A DNA stretch of 64,000 nt from Actinotalea alkalitolerans (GTDB taxonomy: Bacteria > Actinomycetota > Actinomycetes > Actinomycetales > Cellulomonadaceae): contig NZ_JAMBPP010000012.1 of assembly GCF_023369855.1 (NCBI RefSeq), forward strand, positions 62,001-126,000, in the 5' to 3' direction. Both the position numbers and the translations under genes were made by a program. Of this stretch, positions 36,180 through 44,357 are shown piece after piece (the stretch's first letter is position 1; each line of letters opens with the position of its first letter). A model generated the notes under the pieces. It was not told the origin of the DNA. It did no database searches and saw only the letters and a list, made by a program, of their open reading frames with translations.

Positions 36180-36827
36180 GTGACCAGCCAGACCAGACGA
36201 CCGAACCCCAAGGACGAGCGACGCGAGAAGGTCGCGCAGCTCAAGGCCGAGCAGCAACGGGCCGAGAAGCGCCGCAACCGGATCGTCATCGGCGTCGCAG
36301 CACTGGTGGGCCTTGCCCTGGTGGTTCCTGCCGCGTTCATCATCGTGGGTGAGCAGCGACGGCAGAGCGAGATCGCTGCGGCGGCGTCCGAGCCGATCGA
36401 CGGCGTGCAGCTGTTCGACGACCTGGGCGCGAACCACGTCACCACGCCGGTCGACTACCAGCCGACGCCACCCGTCGGCGGTGACCACCACCCGACCTGG
36501 CAGAACTGCGGCTTCTACACCGAGCCCGTGGTGGACGAGCACGCCGTCCACTCGCTCGAGCACGGTGCCGTGTGGCTGACCTATGCACCCGACCTCCCCG
36601 AGGCCGACGTCGCGACGCTCCGGGCGCTCACCCAGCGGCACCCCTACCTGCTCGTCAGCCCCTACGACGGCGTGACCGGCCCGCTCGTGGCCAGCGCCTG
36701 GGGGGTCCAGCTCGAGCTCGACGGTGTCGACGACGAACGGCTCGAGCCGTTCCTGCGGGCGTACCTGCAGGGGCCCCAGACCCCTGAGCCGGGCGCTGCC
36801 TGCACCGGCGGTGTCGGCGGGGCCTGA
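36180..36827 (+). CDS. DUF3105 membrane-anchored protein
   Basis: The 215-residue protein has a basic coiled N-terminus (KDERREKVAQLKAEQQRAEK), one membrane span (IVIGVAALVGLALVVPAAFII) and an external DUF3105 domain with the conserved histidines GGDHHPTWQNCGFY and HAVHSLEHGAVWLTY. The His/Cys pattern suggests metal binding; function is unknown. GTG 36180 follows CGAGGAGTCC. DUF3105 genes are commonly followed by DUF305, as here, two bases on. Confidence 0.87.
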   Translation: MTSQTRRPNPKDERREKVAQLKAEQQRAEKRRNRIVIGVAALVGLALVVPAAFIIVGEQRRQSEIAAAASEPIDGVQLFDDLGANHVTTPVDYQPTPPVGGDHHPTWQNCGFYTEPVVDEHAVHSLEHGAVWLTYAPDLPEADVATLRALTQRHPYLLVSPYDGVTGPLVASAWGVQLELDGVDDERLEPFLRAYLQGPQTPEPGAACTGGVGGA

Positions 36828-36829
36828 CC

Positions 36830-37543
36830 GTGCAGCACGAGCTCCCGCTCACCCCACGCGAGACGGCCAGAGCTGACCAGGACGGCGCCCCGAGCAGCTC
36901 CGCGGACCGGGCTCGCTCGACGGTGGTGACGGCGGTGGTCGCGGTCGTCGCGCTCGCCGCGGGTCTCGCTCTCGGTCTGCTGGGCGCGGGCGCACTCCTG
37001 CGAGCCCCCGTCCCGGGTGACAGCTCGGTCGACGCCGGGTTCGCGCGCGACATGCAGGCGCACCACGCCCAGGCCGTGGAGATGTCGGTGCTCGTGCGTG
37101 ACCGGACCGACGACGAGGAGGTCCGCGTCCTGGCGCTGGACATCCTGCTGACCCAGCAGCAGCAGCAGGGGCAGATGTTCGGCTGGCTCGCCACCTGGGG
37201 ACTGCCGCAGGCCTCGACCGATCCGGTGATGGCGTGGATGGCCGACCATCACGACGGACCGCTGGACGAGGGCCTGGGGCTGGCGGCGATGCCGGGGTAC
37301 GCGAGTGCCGAGCAGCTCGAACGGCTCACCTCCGCGCAGGGGCAGGAGGCGGAGCGCCTGTACCTCGCCTTGATGATCCCGCACCACCAGGGCGGCGTCG
37401 ACATGGCCGACGTCGCGGCCGAGCAGGCCGAGCAACCGGCGGTGCGCGCGCTCGCCGCTGCGATGGTCGCGGCTCAGCGGTCCGAGATCGCCGTGCTCCG
37501 CCAGATGCTCGACGAGCGGGGCGGGGCCCCCGACGACCTGTGA
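36830..37543 (+). CDS. DUF305 membrane-anchored His-rich protein
   Basis: The 237-residue protein has an N-terminal membrane anchor (VVTAVVAVVALAAGLALGLL) and an external ferritin-like four-helix DUF305 domain. Both signature motifs are present: FARDMQAHHAQAVEMS and ALMIPHHQGGVDMA. The Met/His-rich helices are thought to bind copper or other metals. It is coupled to the DUF3105 gene (stop and start two bases apart), so both likely act in the same envelope metal process. Confidence 0.9.
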   Translation: MQHELPLTPRETARADQDGAPSSSADRARSTVVTAVVAVVALAAGLALGLLGAGALLRAPVPGDSSVDAGFARDMQAHHAQAVEMSVLVRDRTDDEEVRVLALDILLTQQQQQGQMFGWLATWGLPQASTDPVMAWMADHHDGPLDEGLGLAAMPGYASAEQLERLTSAQGQEAERLYLALMIPHHQGGVDMADVAAEQAEQPAVRALAAAMVAAQRSEIAVLRQMLDERGGAPDDL

Positions 37544-39680: not shown

Positions 39681-41252
39681 TCACCACGCCGCGGGGGAGT
39701 AGTCCTTGAGGAAGACCCCGTAGAGATCCTCGCCGCTCTCTCCACGCACGATCGGGTCGTAGACCCGCGCCGCCCCGTCGACCAGGTCCAGCGGCGCGTG
39801 GAAGCCCTCCTCGGCGAGCCGGACCTTGGTGGGGTGGGGTCGCTCGTCGGTGATCCACCCGGTGTCGACACTGGTCATCAGGATGCCGTCGTCGAAGAGC
39901 TCGGTGGCACTGGTCCGGGTGAGCATGTTGACCGCGGCCTTGGCCATGTTGGTGTGCGGGTGCCCGGGCCCCTTGTAGCCCCGCGAGAACACGCCCTCCA
40001 TCGCCGAGACGTTCACCACGTAGGTGCGTCGCGCGGACGAGGCGGCAAGCGCTGGCCGCAGGCGGCTGACCAGGATGAACGGTGCGGTCATGTTGCACAG
40101 CTGGACCTCGAGCATCTCGAGGGCGTCGACCTGGTCCACGGTGGCCACCCAGCTGTTCGACGCGTGCAGGTCGGGGAGCAGCCCTCCGGCGTCGATAGCG
40201 TCGCCCCGTGCCAGCCGTGCGAGGGAGGAGGAGCCTGCCCGCAGCGCTTCGCCGGTGAGATGGTCCGCGTGGGCCACGGCCAGTGCTCGTGCGGTGCCCG
40301 GAGCGGCGTCGTCGTCGTGATGACGGGGGGCGTCGGTGCCCACGGCGCTGACCAGGGCCGCCGGGTGCGCGTCGCTCGCGTGCTCGAAGGTGATGAGGTG
40401 GGGGAGCGGACCGTGGGGAAGCGGTGCCTGCTCGGCCTCGACCAGCGGGGCGTACGACCCGGTCGAGCGACGAACCGTCTGCGCGGCGTTGTTGATCAGG
40501 ATGTCGAGCGGTCCGGCGGCGGCGACCTCGTCGGCGAGGGCGACCACCTGGGCGGGGTCCCGCAGGTCCAGCCCCACCACGGTCAGCCGGTGCAGCCAGT
40601 CGGCGGAGTCCTCCATCGCGGTGAACCTGCGCACCGCGTCGCGGGGGAAGCGGGTCGTGATGGTCGTGTGCGCGCCGTCACGCAGCAGGCGCAGCGCGAT
40701 GTACATCCCGATCTTGGCGCGGCCGCCGGTCAGCAGGGCGCGCCGCCCGGTGAGGTCGGTGCGCGCCGCCCGACGGTCATGGTTCAGGCTCGCGCAGGCG
40801 GGGCAGAGCTGGTGGTAGAAGGCATCGACCTGGGTGTAGAGCTCCTTGCACACGTAGCAGGCGCGCGCCCGCTGGAGGCTTCCCGCACTGGCTCCCCGAG
40901 CGTTGGACACCAGCGGCAGCCCGGCTGTCTCGTCGTCGATCCGCCGCGGTGAGCCGGTGGCCGTCGCCGCGACCACGGCGGCGTCGGCCGCGCTGATCGC
41001 GGCACGGCGGTCGAGCCGTCGCTGCTTCTTGACCGCCTTGAACAGCCGGCCGGTCGCACGCCGCAGCGCCAGTGCGTCCGGGTGGTCGGGGTCGAGCTGC
41101 TCGGCCCCTCGCAGCACCGCCAGACAGCGGGCGAGCTCCTCGGGGTCGATGCGCTCTGCGGCGGTCGTCTCGTCGGTCCCGTCCGGGGACGCCGGGCCGG
41201 CCACAGGGCTCGGGGCGTGGAGCGGGTTCGGGTCGTCGTGGTCTGCGTCCAT
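39681..41252 (-). CDS. SDR-family oxidoreductase with N-terminal zinc ribbon
   Basis: The 523-residue protein has an unusual layout. Residues 1-125 are helical and charged. A zinc ribbon follows (Cys132-x2-Cys135-x14-Cys150-x2-Cys153). The Rossmann domain has TGGRAKIG at 175-182 and NNAAQ at 254-258. A ~100-residue insert (270-370) precedes the catalytic part with Ser416 (NVSAMEG). The usual Tyr of YxxxK is Thr434 in TNMAK438, so classic reduction chemistry may be lost or altered. It is divergent from the DUF6421 gene across 148 bases, and the two may act together. The substrate is unknown. Confidence 0.8.
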   Translation of the reverse strand: MDADHDDPNPLHAPSPVAGPASPDGTDETTAAERIDPEELARCLAVLRGAEQLDPDHPDALALRRATGRLFKAVKKQRRLDRRAAISAADAAVVAATATGSPRRIDDETAGLPLVSNARGASAGSLQRARACYVCKELYTQVDAFYHQLCPACASLNHDRRAARTDLTGRRALLTGGRAKIGMYIALRLLRDGAHTTITTRFPRDAVRRFTAMEDSADWLHRLTVVGLDLRDPAQVVALADEVAAAGPLDILINNAAQTVRRSTGSYAPLVEAEQAPLPHGPLPHLITFEHASDAHPAALVSAVGTDAPRHHDDDAAPGTARALAVAHADHLTGEALRAGSSSLARLARGDAIDAGGLLPDLHASNSWVATVDQVDALEMLEVQLCNMTAPFILVSRLRPALAASSARRTYVVNVSAMEGVFSRGYKGPGHPHTNMAKAAVNMLTRTSATELFDDGILMTSVDTGWITDERPHPTKVRLAEEGFHAPLDLVDGAARVYDPIVRGESGEDLYGVFLKDYSPAAW

Positions 41253-41400
41253 GTCCTCTTCGTCTCAGCAACTGCTCGACGGGGTTCCGGCCCCACGAGC
41301 GCCGCGAGAACTGTACGCACACGGGTCGTTGACCCGTGCAGAGCGCCGACCGTACCGTGCAGTAGCTCACAGGTCCTCGAGACGGAAGTTGGTGGCAGGG

Positions 41401-43290
41401 ATGGCACGGTTCCCGCTGGTTCGCTGGGCCGGAGCGGTGTCACCCGCGGTCGAACGACCCGACGTCGTGGTGGTGCGATCGACCGACGTCCTGGACGAGG
41501 CCGACCGCGCAGACCTCCTGTCCGGGGCGGGGCTCGTGGTGTGCGGGGGTGAGCGGTGGGACCTGTCGGTCCGCGACCTGCTCGCGACCCTGGGCGTCCT
41601 GGTGGACGTCCGTCAGGCCGAGCGCGCGGTGGTCCGGGCCGACACCGCGGGCATGGCGGTCGCGACCGGGCAGGACGTGCTGTCCCGCGTGACCGACTCC
41701 ACGGTCACCGAGCTCGAGGGGACCGTTCACGCCCACCTGACGCTCGAGGCACCGGCCGGGGCCCTGCTGCGCACCGGTGCGGGGTCGGTGGTGGCGGCCG
41801 CGGTGGACCGCGACGGCCGTCGCGCCGTGGTGATCGCTGTCGACCTGGACGAGGCGCGGGCCGCCCACCTGGTCCGCAACGCCGCGACCTGGGCAGCCGG
41901 GCCGGCCACAGGGGACCTCTCGTCCGTCCCACCGGCCGACGGGCAGGAGCCTGCCGAGCACCTGACCCTGTCGACCGCCTGGCTCGAGCTCAAGGCCTGC
42001 GTGGAGGAGCTGCAGCCCCTGCAGGCCAAGGACGGATCCGTCCCGGACCCGGCCGACCACGAGCACGCTCGAGGGTTGGTGACCAGGGTGGTCGCAGCGG
42101 TCGAGCAGCTCGCGCCGGCCTTCCCGCACGACGCCGCGTACCTCGCGGCCCTGGGAGAGGACCTGCGCCGCTGGAGCGTCGAGCTCGGGGTGCCGGACTT
42201 CCTGGACTCCCTGGTCGCCTTCCAGCCTCAGGCGCAGCGCGTCGACGGTCGTCGGCACCTGGTGCTCTTCCCGATGTACACCCAGAACGGCAGCCCGGAC
42301 CGACACCTCGAGGCGGTGCTGATCGAGGTCATCTGGCCGGACTTCGTCGCCGCGCTCGAGGCGGGGGACTACTCGAACAAGCTCTTCGTCCCCATCCGGT
42401 TCCTCGACTTCACCTCTGGCTACGACACCAACTCGGCAGTGCTCTTCCCCGAGACGGTCGCGATGCGTGAGATCCCCACGTTCACCTGGGGAGCGATCTT
42501 CGCCGACCGCGAGGCCGCCCGGTTCCGCGCGGTGGTGCGGGCCGCCGCGGCCACCACGGGGCTGGCGCTGCCACCCGACGCCGCACGCCTCCTCGACGAC
42601 CAGCAGCTCGCCGAGGAGACCTTCGTCATGTGGGACCTCATCCACGACCGCACCCACATGCGCGGGGACCTGCCGTTCGACCCGTTCATGATCAAGCAAC
42701 GGATGCCGTACTTCCTGTACGCCCTCGAGGAGCTCCGCTGCGACCTGACGGCGTTCCGCGAGGCCGTCGCCCTCGAGGAGAGCGTCCCGCACGCCCGACT
42801 CGTGCAGTACGCCGTGATCTTCGACCGCATCTTCCGGTTCGCGATCACGGGGTCCCGGGTCCGCAACTACGACGGCCTGGGCGGGCAGCTCCTGTTCGCC
42901 TGGCTCCACCAGCACGGGGTGCTGCACTGGACCGACAGCCGACTGAGCATCGACTGGGCAGGCGTGCCCGAGGTCGTGCTGGCCCTGGGGCGCGAGATCG
43001 AGGACCTGTACTGGCGCTCGATCGACCGACCCAAGATCGCGCACTGGCTCGCCGCCTACCGTCTGGTCAGTGCGACGGTCACCCCGCACCCGGCCTCGGT
43101 GTGGGCCAAGGGGCCCGACGCGCTCCCGCTCGAGGGTCCGCTCAAGGGGCTCACCGACGCCGTGATGCCCGACGAGTTCCCGTTGTCGATGTTCTACGAG
43201 GCGCTCAGCCGTCGCATCGGCGAGGTCGTCACGTCCACCGCCGGGATCACCGGGACCTCGCCGCTGGCCTCTGCACCCGTCGGCGGGTGA
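41401..43290 (+). CDS. DUF6421 family protein
   Basis: The 629-residue protein begins MARFPLVRWAGAV and matches a conserved actinobacterial family of unknown function. The N-terminal 200 residues are strand-rich. The central and C-terminal parts hold conserved polar motifs, including HLVLFPMYTQNGSPDR, FVMWDLIHDRTHMRGDLPFDPFM and YALEELRCDLTAF. The H-D-R-T-H-M-R-G followed by E-E-L-R-C-D could be a metal site, but no enzyme class is established. No signal peptide. ATG 41401 sits behind GGCAGGG. Confidence 0.78.
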   Translation: MARFPLVRWAGAVSPAVERPDVVVVRSTDVLDEADRADLLSGAGLVVCGGERWDLSVRDLLATLGVLVDVRQAERAVVRADTAGMAVATGQDVLSRVTDSTVTELEGTVHAHLTLEAPAGALLRTGAGSVVAAAVDRDGRRAVVIAVDLDEARAAHLVRNAATWAAGPATGDLSSVPPADGQEPAEHLTLSTAWLELKACVEELQPLQAKDGSVPDPADHEHARGLVTRVVAAVEQLAPAFPHDAAYLAALGEDLRRWSVELGVPDFLDSLVAFQPQAQRVDGRRHLVLFPMYTQNGSPDRHLEAVLIEVIWPDFVAALEAGDYSNKLFVPIRFLDFTSGYDTNSAVLFPETVAMREIPTFTWGAIFADREAARFRAVVRAAAATTGLALPPDAARLLDDQQLAEETFVMWDLIHDRTHMRGDLPFDPFMIKQRMPYFLYALEELRCDLTAFREAVALEESVPHARLVQYAVIFDRIFRFAITGSRVRNYDGLGGQLLFAWLHQHGVLHWTDSRLSIDWAGVPEVVLALGREIEDLYWRSIDRPKIAHWLAAYRLVSATVTPHPASVWAKGPDALPLEGPLKGLTDAVMPDEFPLSMFYEALSRRIGEVVTSTAGITGTSPLASAPVGG

Positions 43291-43304: not shown

Positions 43305-44357
43305 GTGACCAGACTCCACGACGTGACGGTCCGCGGGTTCGCCTCGGACAACTACGCCGGTGTCCATCCCGCGGTGATCGCGGCGATCAGCGACGCCAAC
43401 GACGGCCACCAGGTGGCCTACGGCGAGGACGTGTACACCGCGCGCCTGCACGAGGTGATGGCCGGGCACTTCGGCCGCGAGGTCGAGGTCTTCCCCGTCT
43501 TCAACGGCACCGGTGCGAACGTCCTCTCGCTGCAGTCGATGCTTCCCCGCTGGGGTGCGGTGATCTGCACCGAGACCGCCCACGTCCACACCGACGAGAA
43601 CGCCGCGCCCGAGCGGGTCGCCGGCATCAAGCTCCTCACGGTCCCGACCCCCGACGGCAAGCTCACCCCCGAGCTGGTCGACCGGCAGGCCTGGGGCTGG
43701 GGTGACGAGCACCGTGCCCAGCCGGCGGTCGTCACGATCACCCAGAGCACCGAGCTCGGCACCTGCTACACCCCCGCGGAGATCGCGGCGTTGTGCGAGC
43801 ACGCCCACGGCCACGGCATGACGGTGCACCTCGACGGGGCGCGGATCGCCAACGCCGCAGCGTCGCTCGGCGTGCCGCTCCGGGCCTTCACCACCGATGC
43901 CGGGGTGGACGTCGTCAGCTTCGGCGGGACCAAGAACGGCTTGCTCGGGGCCGAGGCCGTGGTGGTCCTGGACCCTTCGGCGTCGACCGGCCTGACCTAC
44001 CTGCGCAAGATGAACATGCAGCTGGCCTCGAAGATGAGGTTCATCTCCGCGCAGCTCGTCGCCCTGCTCGAGGGTGACCTGTGGTTGCGCTCGGCGCAGC
44101 ACGCGAACGCGATGGCCGGCAGGCTGCGCGACGGTGTCCAGGACCTGCCCGGGGTCCGGATCGTGCGTCCCGTCCAGGCGAACGCGGTCTTCGCGGTCCT
44201 GCCCGACGGTGTCGCCGACCGCCTGCGCACCCGGTTCCGGTTCTACGACTGGGACGCGGCGACGGGCGAGGTGCGGTGGATGTGCGCCTTCGACACCACC
44301 GAGCAGGACGTGGACCGCTTCGTGGACGCGCTCCGCGCGGAGCTCGCGCTGGTCTGA
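43305..44357 (+). CDS. Threonine aldolase family protein (PLP)
   Basis: The ~350-residue fold-type I PLP enzyme cleaves L-threonine or related beta-hydroxy amino acids to glycine and an aldehyde. Landmarks are FASDNYAGVHPAV, AYGEDVYTARL, FNGTGANVLSLQ, TVHLDGARIANAA (PLP-stacking and Asp) and the Schiff-base Lys in SFGGTKNGLLGAE. GTG 43305 is used; GTG 43287 would overlap the DUF6421 stop as GTGA and add six residues. It is likely co-transcribed with DUF6421. Confidence 0.92.
   Translation: MTRLHDVTVRGFASDNYAGVHPAVIAAISDANDGHQVAYGEDVYTARLHEVMAGHFGREVEVFPVFNGTGANVLSLQSMLPRWGAVICTETAHVHTDENAAPERVAGIKLLTVPTPDGKLTPELVDRQAWGWGDEHRAQPAVVTITQSTELGTCYTPAEIAALCEHAHGHGMTVHLDGARIANAAASLGVPLRAFTTDAGVDVVSFGGTKNGLLGAEAVVVLDPSASTGLTYLRKMNMQLASKMRFISAQLVALLEGDLWLRSAQHANAMAGRLRDGVQDLPGVRIVRPVQANAVFAVLPDGVADRLRTRFRFYDWDAATGEVRWMCAFDTTEQDVDRFVDALRAELALV

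Follow-up and report, generated by a model that had tools for sequence, protein, structure and literature searches.

Do two genes that diverge from a short intergenic region in an actinobacterial genome act in one pathway, and if so, in which? The question is raised by a stretch of 64,000 nucleotides from Actinotalea alkalitolerans (contig NZ_JAMBPP010000012.1, positions 62,001 to 126,000), called here the window, in which two open reading frames (ORFs) at 39681-43290 head outward: one encodes a zinc-ribbon member of the short-chain dehydrogenase/reductase (SDR) family and the other a DUF6421 protein. The reading that we favour, with a probability of roughly one half, is that the locus represents a variant of a gene cluster with which actinobacteria oxidise amino acids, and that the zinc-ribbon SDR and the DUF6421 protein serve one pathway there, their coupling being facultative and not obligate. 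A sequence-only reading had already proposed the divergent pair, and its coordinates, its divergence and both families (PF00106 and PF19985) are confirmed; it had left out the aldolase gene that starts 14 bp after the DUF6421 gene, and adding this gene improves the pathway idea. The locus is composed as follows.

39681..41252, minus strand: zinc-ribbon SDR-family protein, 523 residues (PF00106, 9.6e-17; PF13561, 5e-12)
41253..41400, no strand: divergent intergenic region, 148 bp between the two starts, provided that DUF6421 starts at the ATG at 41401
41401..43290, plus strand: DUF6421 protein, 629 residues, predicted PolE-like Fe/pterin amino-acid oxygenase (PF19985, 783.7 bits against a cut-off of 25, 5.6e-236, residues 192-619)
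43305..44357, plus strand: pyridoxal 5′-phosphate (PLP)-dependent enzyme of the L-threonine aldolase type (Pfam Beta_elim_lyase PF01212, 4.1e-53)

The description of DUF6421 as a family without a known role is outdated. PolE, which belongs to it, is an Fe/pterin-dependent L-isoleucine desaturase of polyoxin biosynthesis that targets C3-C4 of Ile, carries the metal motif HE/DXXHX(21-23)E and is stimulated 2-3 fold by QDPR, according to PMC12614342, so a pterin reductase is useful to this family. The same paper estimates some 10,000 PolE homologues and proposes amino-acid pathways, as yet unknown, around them; the word ‘aldolase’ is absent from its main text, and among open-licence PubMed Central (PMC) papers DUF6421 is named only there. 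The window protein is classed with PolE because the motif, in the form HD..H-x23-E, is present in 75/75 DUF6421 proteins, because phmmer matches it to SnPolE (2e-12; SmPolE chains were also found), and because its predicted fold, a modest model with a predicted local distance difference test (pLDDT) score of 62.5, aligns with SmPolE and SnPolE at Z 21.8-22.3 (root-mean-square deviation 5.0-5.2, 347-354 aligned residues), above dipeptidyl peptidase III at Z 15 or lower. These and all other fold comparisons concern the families among the matches listed, and families outside them are not thereby excluded. Two parts of the protein matter here.

42643..42729, plus strand: predicted metal motif H415-D-R-T-H419-x23-E443
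41401..41970, plus strand: N-terminal extension of about 190 residues, without a Pfam match, of low pLDDT and absent from shorter homologues

The order of genes around DUF6421 carries much of the argument. It was tabulated for 75 loci. Eight of them (L193, L195, L202, L205 and L251-L254) were selected because a zinc-ribbon SDR lay near, and the others were hand-picked, mostly one per genus, and non-random; L269 and L270, where gene calling gave no DUF6421 ORF in either stretch, and L108, with its short divergent match, stand outside the table. The commonest order is DUF6421, a classical SDR with the YxxxK motif (‘c5’) and the aldolase (‘c2’), all in one direction, and at loci of a genus that we take to be Streptomyces the ends of the three genes touch or overlap. 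The aldolase is found at 51 of the 75 loci (48/67 without the loci chosen for a near SDR), the YxxxK SDR at 45 (38/67) and the zinc-ribbon SDR at 17, including the eight chosen for it (9/67 otherwise); the aldolase is a steadier DUF6421 partner than the zinc-ribbon SDR. In the window it matches solved L-threonine aldolases over nearly its full length (5vye, 2e-82; 1v72, 2e-75). The window's own family, coded f1 in our search set, follows another pattern: the YxxxK SDR occurs at 0/19 of its loci in the table, and the window genome (4.37 Mb) holds no clear homologue of it, only weak generic SDR matches, the best at 34.8 bits.

The zinc-ribbon SDR itself lies near DUF6421 more often than chance would place it. 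In the f1 sample this holds for 9 of 18 DUF6421 genomes, against about 0.1 near pairs expected by our own arithmetic from random placement in the 16 f1 genomes with both genes; in a second family, f5, the two genes lie within 12 kb in 4 of 65 genomes, as read by eye, against about 0.5 expected from 24 kb in some 3.4 Mb per genome. The arrangements are varied (g-numbers denote genera). Curtobacterium pusillum (CP018783.1) has DUF6421, YxxxK SDR, aldolase and zinc-ribbon SDR on the same strand with gaps of 26, 4 and 17 bp, and in two genomes of g343 the zinc-ribbon SDR sits directly upstream on the same strand, followed by DUF6421, YxxxK SDR and aldolase. It faces the end of the aldolase in two genomes of g204, is convergent with DUF6421 in g211, stands in a facing position with two genes between in g218 and three in Cellulomonas sp. 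Leaf395, and in Agrococcus and g293 is found within about 6-11 kb, near without being adjacent. On the SDR tree the loci near DUF6421 form 7 distinct groups, and the state has changed 7 times or more, one of the loci (L151) being scored as near only through the ends of different contigs in one draft genome; proximity therefore either arose repeatedly or is an old link lost many times. The divergent layout seen in the window was met, among the loci fetched, in 5 genomes of the window's genus only, and a fixed divergent pair as a general rule was accordingly rejected.

Several observations on these genes stand beside this survey. In the window's genus, two loci (L146 and L147, from genomes G345 and G420) have the zinc-ribbon SDR divergent from the aldolase in genomes with no DUF6421 match, which looks like a loss of the oxygenase from a cluster that has retained its two partners. 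DUF6421 proteins come in two lengths, short (about 440-490 residues) and long (about 600-780 residues), and three genomes (G008, G608 and G824) have two full-length copies each. At L108:6-18404 (G171, genus g8), a divergent PolE-like DUF6421 protein of 373 residues (50.8 bits) is encoded amid genes for a polyketide synthase, a tryptophan-halogenase-type enzyme and a non-ribosomal peptide synthetase, so that this locus may be a natural-product cluster that includes an Fe/pterin amino-acid oxidase.

Presence and absence across genomes point the same way as position. Counted in samples that overlap, that treat related genomes as independent and whose numbers are distorted by reduced genomes and low-quality metagenome-assembled genomes (MAGs), the zinc-ribbon SDR is present with versus without DUF6421 in 11/15 versus 15/281 genomes of the phylum (Fisher p 3e-10), 75/92 versus 65/304 of the order (p 1e-25), 16/18 versus 64/132 of f1 (p 0.002), 65/103 versus 12/47 of f5 (p 2e-5) and 10/10 versus 3/7 of the window's genus (p 0.015). 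The direction of this co-occurrence is likely real, and the p-values are not relied on. An independent distribution of the two families, named beforehand as the result that would speak against a shared pathway, was thus not found in any of the five samples. The idea that the divergent pair works in one pathway is partly supported: it has this enrichment and the proximity in several arrangements on its side, but among the loci fetched the divergent layout is limited to 5 genomes of the window's genus, genomes with both genes mostly have them far apart, and the SDR is common alone.

The zinc-ribbon SDR family is widespread in actinobacteria (26/296 genomes of the phylum sample, 140/396 of the order sample, 80/150 in f1 and 77/150 in f5), mostly in one copy per genome, and a scan of named genomes left 80 SDR loci, nearly all of them actinobacterial. 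Outside DUF6421 settings, its most frequent neighbour is a putative glgC, so named from its sequence rather than from a family call, which lies within 4 genes at 17 of 128 SDR loci; L115, L120-L124, L203 and L219 are among these. A DeaD-type helicase gene stays beside the SDR in the window's genus and in one Demequina record. A further locus (L237), from a Sporosarcina beigongshangi record, has an SDR and neighbours that match Arthrobacter-type loci, so contamination or a recent transfer is to be considered there.

These facts sustain the strongest rival explanation, a real possibility, namely that the zinc-ribbon SDR is a stand-alone enzyme with a job of its own, and that in some lineages it lies near DUF6421 by chance, through shared regulation or because the site favours insertion. 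Its occurrence without DUF6421, its usual single copy and its unrelated neighbours elsewhere, the putative glgC above all, are what such an enzyme would lead one to expect; the several near-DUF6421 arrangements in two families, and a co-occurrence that is positive in all five samples, including the one confined to a single genus, are not. A number of further observations weigh against a shared pathway. Of the genomes without DUF6421, 64 of 132 in f1 and 12 of 47 in f5 have the SDR. It is missing from 38 of 103 f5 genomes with DUF6421, lies away from DUF6421 in 5 of the 10 genomes of the window's genus that carry DUF6421, and has other neighbours elsewhere; f5 genomes with both genes keep them within 12 kb in only the 4 of 65 already given. 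The aldolase is absent at 24 of the 75 DUF6421 loci, some of them clipped by contig ends. The co-occurrence statistics ignore phylogeny, genome size and MAG quality, with phylogeny as a confounder. The YxxxK SDR does not come out close to dihydropteridine reductase among the matches listed, and pterin recycling is without direct support. A link to pterin-4a-carbinolamine dehydratase was tried and rejected, this enzyme being present in 5/7 genomes with DUF6421 and 7/7 without.

What might a shared amino-acid-oxidising cluster do? Threonine aldolases act on β-hydroxy amino acids. By analogy with its characterised relative, the DUF6421 protein would bind Fe(II) via His415, His419 and Glu443, and would oxidise an unactivated side-chain C-H bond with O2 and a tetrahydropterin. 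Its substrate would be an amino acid in free form, and the bond one that probably involves C-β or a carbon close to it; a β-hydroxy product is envisaged because PolE acts on C3-C4 of Ile and threonine aldolases use β-hydroxy amino acids. The threonine-aldolase-type PLP enzyme may then cleave that product to glycine and an aldehyde, or build it in the reverse direction. In a third step, the weakest of the three, NAD(P)H-dependent SDRs may carry out reducing steps of the same chemistry, the classical YxxxK SDR in most families and possibly the zinc-ribbon SDR at f1 loci, which, as far as tabulated, have no YxxxK SDR and where it often lies beside the cluster.

Whether the zinc-ribbon SDR is equipped for such a step depends on its active site, the relevant parts of which, all on the minus strand, are listed here.

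40794..40859: CxxC-x14-CxxC pattern, predicted zinc ribbon (C132, C135, C150 and C153), invariant in 129/129 relatives
40707..40730: nucleotide-binding motif TGGRAKIG, residues 175-182, with T175, G176, G177 and G182 invariant in 129/129
40137..40469: insert of some 110 residues, roughly 262-372, which DSSP of the model places after the NNAA strand and before helix 377-403
40002..40004: Ala417 at the catalytic-Ser position of classical SDRs, from alignments of hidden Markov models (HMMs) to solved SDRs; Ala in 129/129
39939..39962: HPHTNMAK, residues 431-438, with Thr434 at the catalytic-Tyr position and Lys438 kept; T434, K438 and H431 in 129/129, H433 in 125/129

The protein has the Rossmann core and the TGxxxGxG- and NNAG-type motifs of an SDR, and lacks the catalytic Ser and YxxxK. 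Its model (mean pLDDT 78.5, from a 60-sequence alignment) superimposes on classical SDRs with VIA-align Z scores of 20.7-22.7 over about 215-245 residues, within 165-517, among the matches listed. The two CxxC knuckles form a predicted zinc ribbon, although the match to the Pfam Spt4 zinc finger, at 19.3 bits, is under the cut-off of 25; the insert is poorly conserved and in part of low pLDDT. The zinc ribbon, the long insert and the Thr in place of the catalytic Tyr (T-N-M-A-K) had all been picked out by the sequence-only reading and were found again, and the conservation of Thr434 in 129/129 relatives marks it as a family signature and rules out a sequencing error or an isolated mutation. 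The same reading had the enzyme keeping its nucleotide motif, Ser and Lys: the first and last are indeed kept, whereas Ser416 had been misassigned. In HMM alignments, VNVSAMEG pairs with INISSVSG-like stretches of solved SDRs (N-I-S-S-x-x-G), so that Ser416, also identical in 129/129 relatives, corresponds to the first Ser, and the catalytic position falls on the invariant Ala417. NNAA and Asn387 are retained, the latter in 129/129 relatives, and just before the TxxxK segment come Y426 (127/129) and K427 (129/129). A 15-row alignment contains two relatives that, at no more than 40 and 37% identity, still keep T434, K438, S416, A417 and the four Cys. With Ala and Thr at the catalytic Ser and Tyr positions, the enzyme is not expected to be efficient in ordinary ketone/alcohol chemistry. 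It could instead pass hydride to a substrate that is already electrophilic, of which a quinonoid dihydropterin and an imine are examples, and an alternative acid could come from Tyr426, Lys427 or His431.

That the zinc-ribbon SDR works on the carbon skeleton, reducing the aldolase-derived aldehyde or an imine or keto intermediate by way of Tyr426, His431 or Lys427, is doubtful: it accords with the near or full conservation of these residues and with Curtobacterium, where the gene comes right after the aldolase, and it leans on the geometry of a loop beside the active site (residues 420-433) that is modelled at a pLDDT below 50. That the zinc-ribbon SDR is a pterin recycler, a dihydropteridine reductase analogue replacing the missing YxxxK SDR in f1, seems unlikely. 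The f1 locus without a YxxxK SDR is what makes pterin recycling attractive, the more so as the zinc-ribbon SDR is present in 16 of the 18 f1 genomes that carry DUF6421; an active site that has lost Ser and Tyr would suit a substrate with no need of a strong proton relay, and the stimulation of PolE by QDPR (PMC12614342) is in keeping with it. The Curtobacterium and g343 clusters, however, hold both SDRs, so there is no simple substitution there, 64 of the 80 SDR-bearing f1 genomes are without DUF6421, and no sequence link with known pteridine reductases was seen. Neither QDPR nor DHPR was among the best 60 of 328 and the best 60 of 142 PDB matches for the two SDRs. The YxxxK SDR had separately been considered as an obvious dihydropteridine reductase on account of its QDPR-like LVGGWRG segment, and was set aside when PDB searches ranked generic SDRs first. 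Least probable of all is a role without catalysis, as a regulator or scaffold that binds NAD(P), which would account for the replacement of both Ser and Tyr and for the extra zinc ribbon and long insert, and sits badly with the very strong conservation from VNVSA to HPHTNM and of KAA, more typical of an enzyme.

The remaining surroundings of the locus in the window are a DEAD-box helicase gene and an APP1-type phosphatase gene, both identified by Pfam search and flanking it, and at 36180-37543 a DUF3105 gene followed directly by a DUF305 gene.

In open-licence PMC literature, no relevant paper beyond PMC12614342 was found on a zinc-ribbon SDR, an SDR with an atypical centre, SnPolE, or a threonine aldolase together with a pterin-dependent enzyme. 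Within the literature searched, the DUF6421 - YxxxK SDR - aldolase operon, its facultative zinc-ribbon SDR extension and the Ala/Thr SDR active site appear to be new. The gene order names partners for the PolE homologues, one or two SDRs besides a threonine aldolase, and thereby suggests a specific reaction, oxidation at C-β followed by retro-aldol cleavage. That an SDR active site lacking the catalytic Ser and Tyr is fully conserved is relevant to the question of how far such chemistry can dispense with a proton relay. A bolder proposition, which we regard as rather improbable, is that DUF6421, threonine aldolases and the two kinds of SDR constitute an undescribed, widespread actinobacterial route for the synthesis or breakdown of non-standard amino acids, which combines Fe/pterin-dependent oxidation of C-H bonds with aldol chemistry. 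In that case the zinc-ribbon SDR would be a new subfamily that transfers hydride without a Ser-Tyr pair, for instance in recycling pterin.

Each component of the favoured amino-acid-oxidising cluster can be set against a known system. QDPR is an SDR that keeps YxxxK, with Ala replacing the catalytic Ser; the likeness lies in an SDR backing a pterin-dependent oxygenase, the difference in the YxxxK that it retains. The zinc-ribbon SDR resembles tropinone reductase, norcraugsodine reductase and FabG in its Rossmann core, TGG motif, NNA and active-site Asn and Lys, and differs from classical SDRs by Thr for Tyr, Ala for Ser, an N-terminal zinc ribbon and helix, and the insert of about 110 residues. 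The downstream PLP enzyme is like the L-threonine aldolases 5vye and 1v72 in its near full-length similarity, and unlike them in that its gene adjoins DUF6421 and that it scores below both NCBIfam cut-offs (94.9 bits against 230 for GntG and 36 against 312 for the low-specificity L-threonine aldolase). The window DUF6421 protein, finally, shares with PolE the Pfam family, the HD/ExxH-x(21-23)-E motif and, as modelled, the fold (Z about 22), and departs from it in length (629 residues against 373-391 in the solved chains), in its N-terminal extension and in an identity of only about 20%; its neighbour is an aldolase, whereas that of PolE is PolF.

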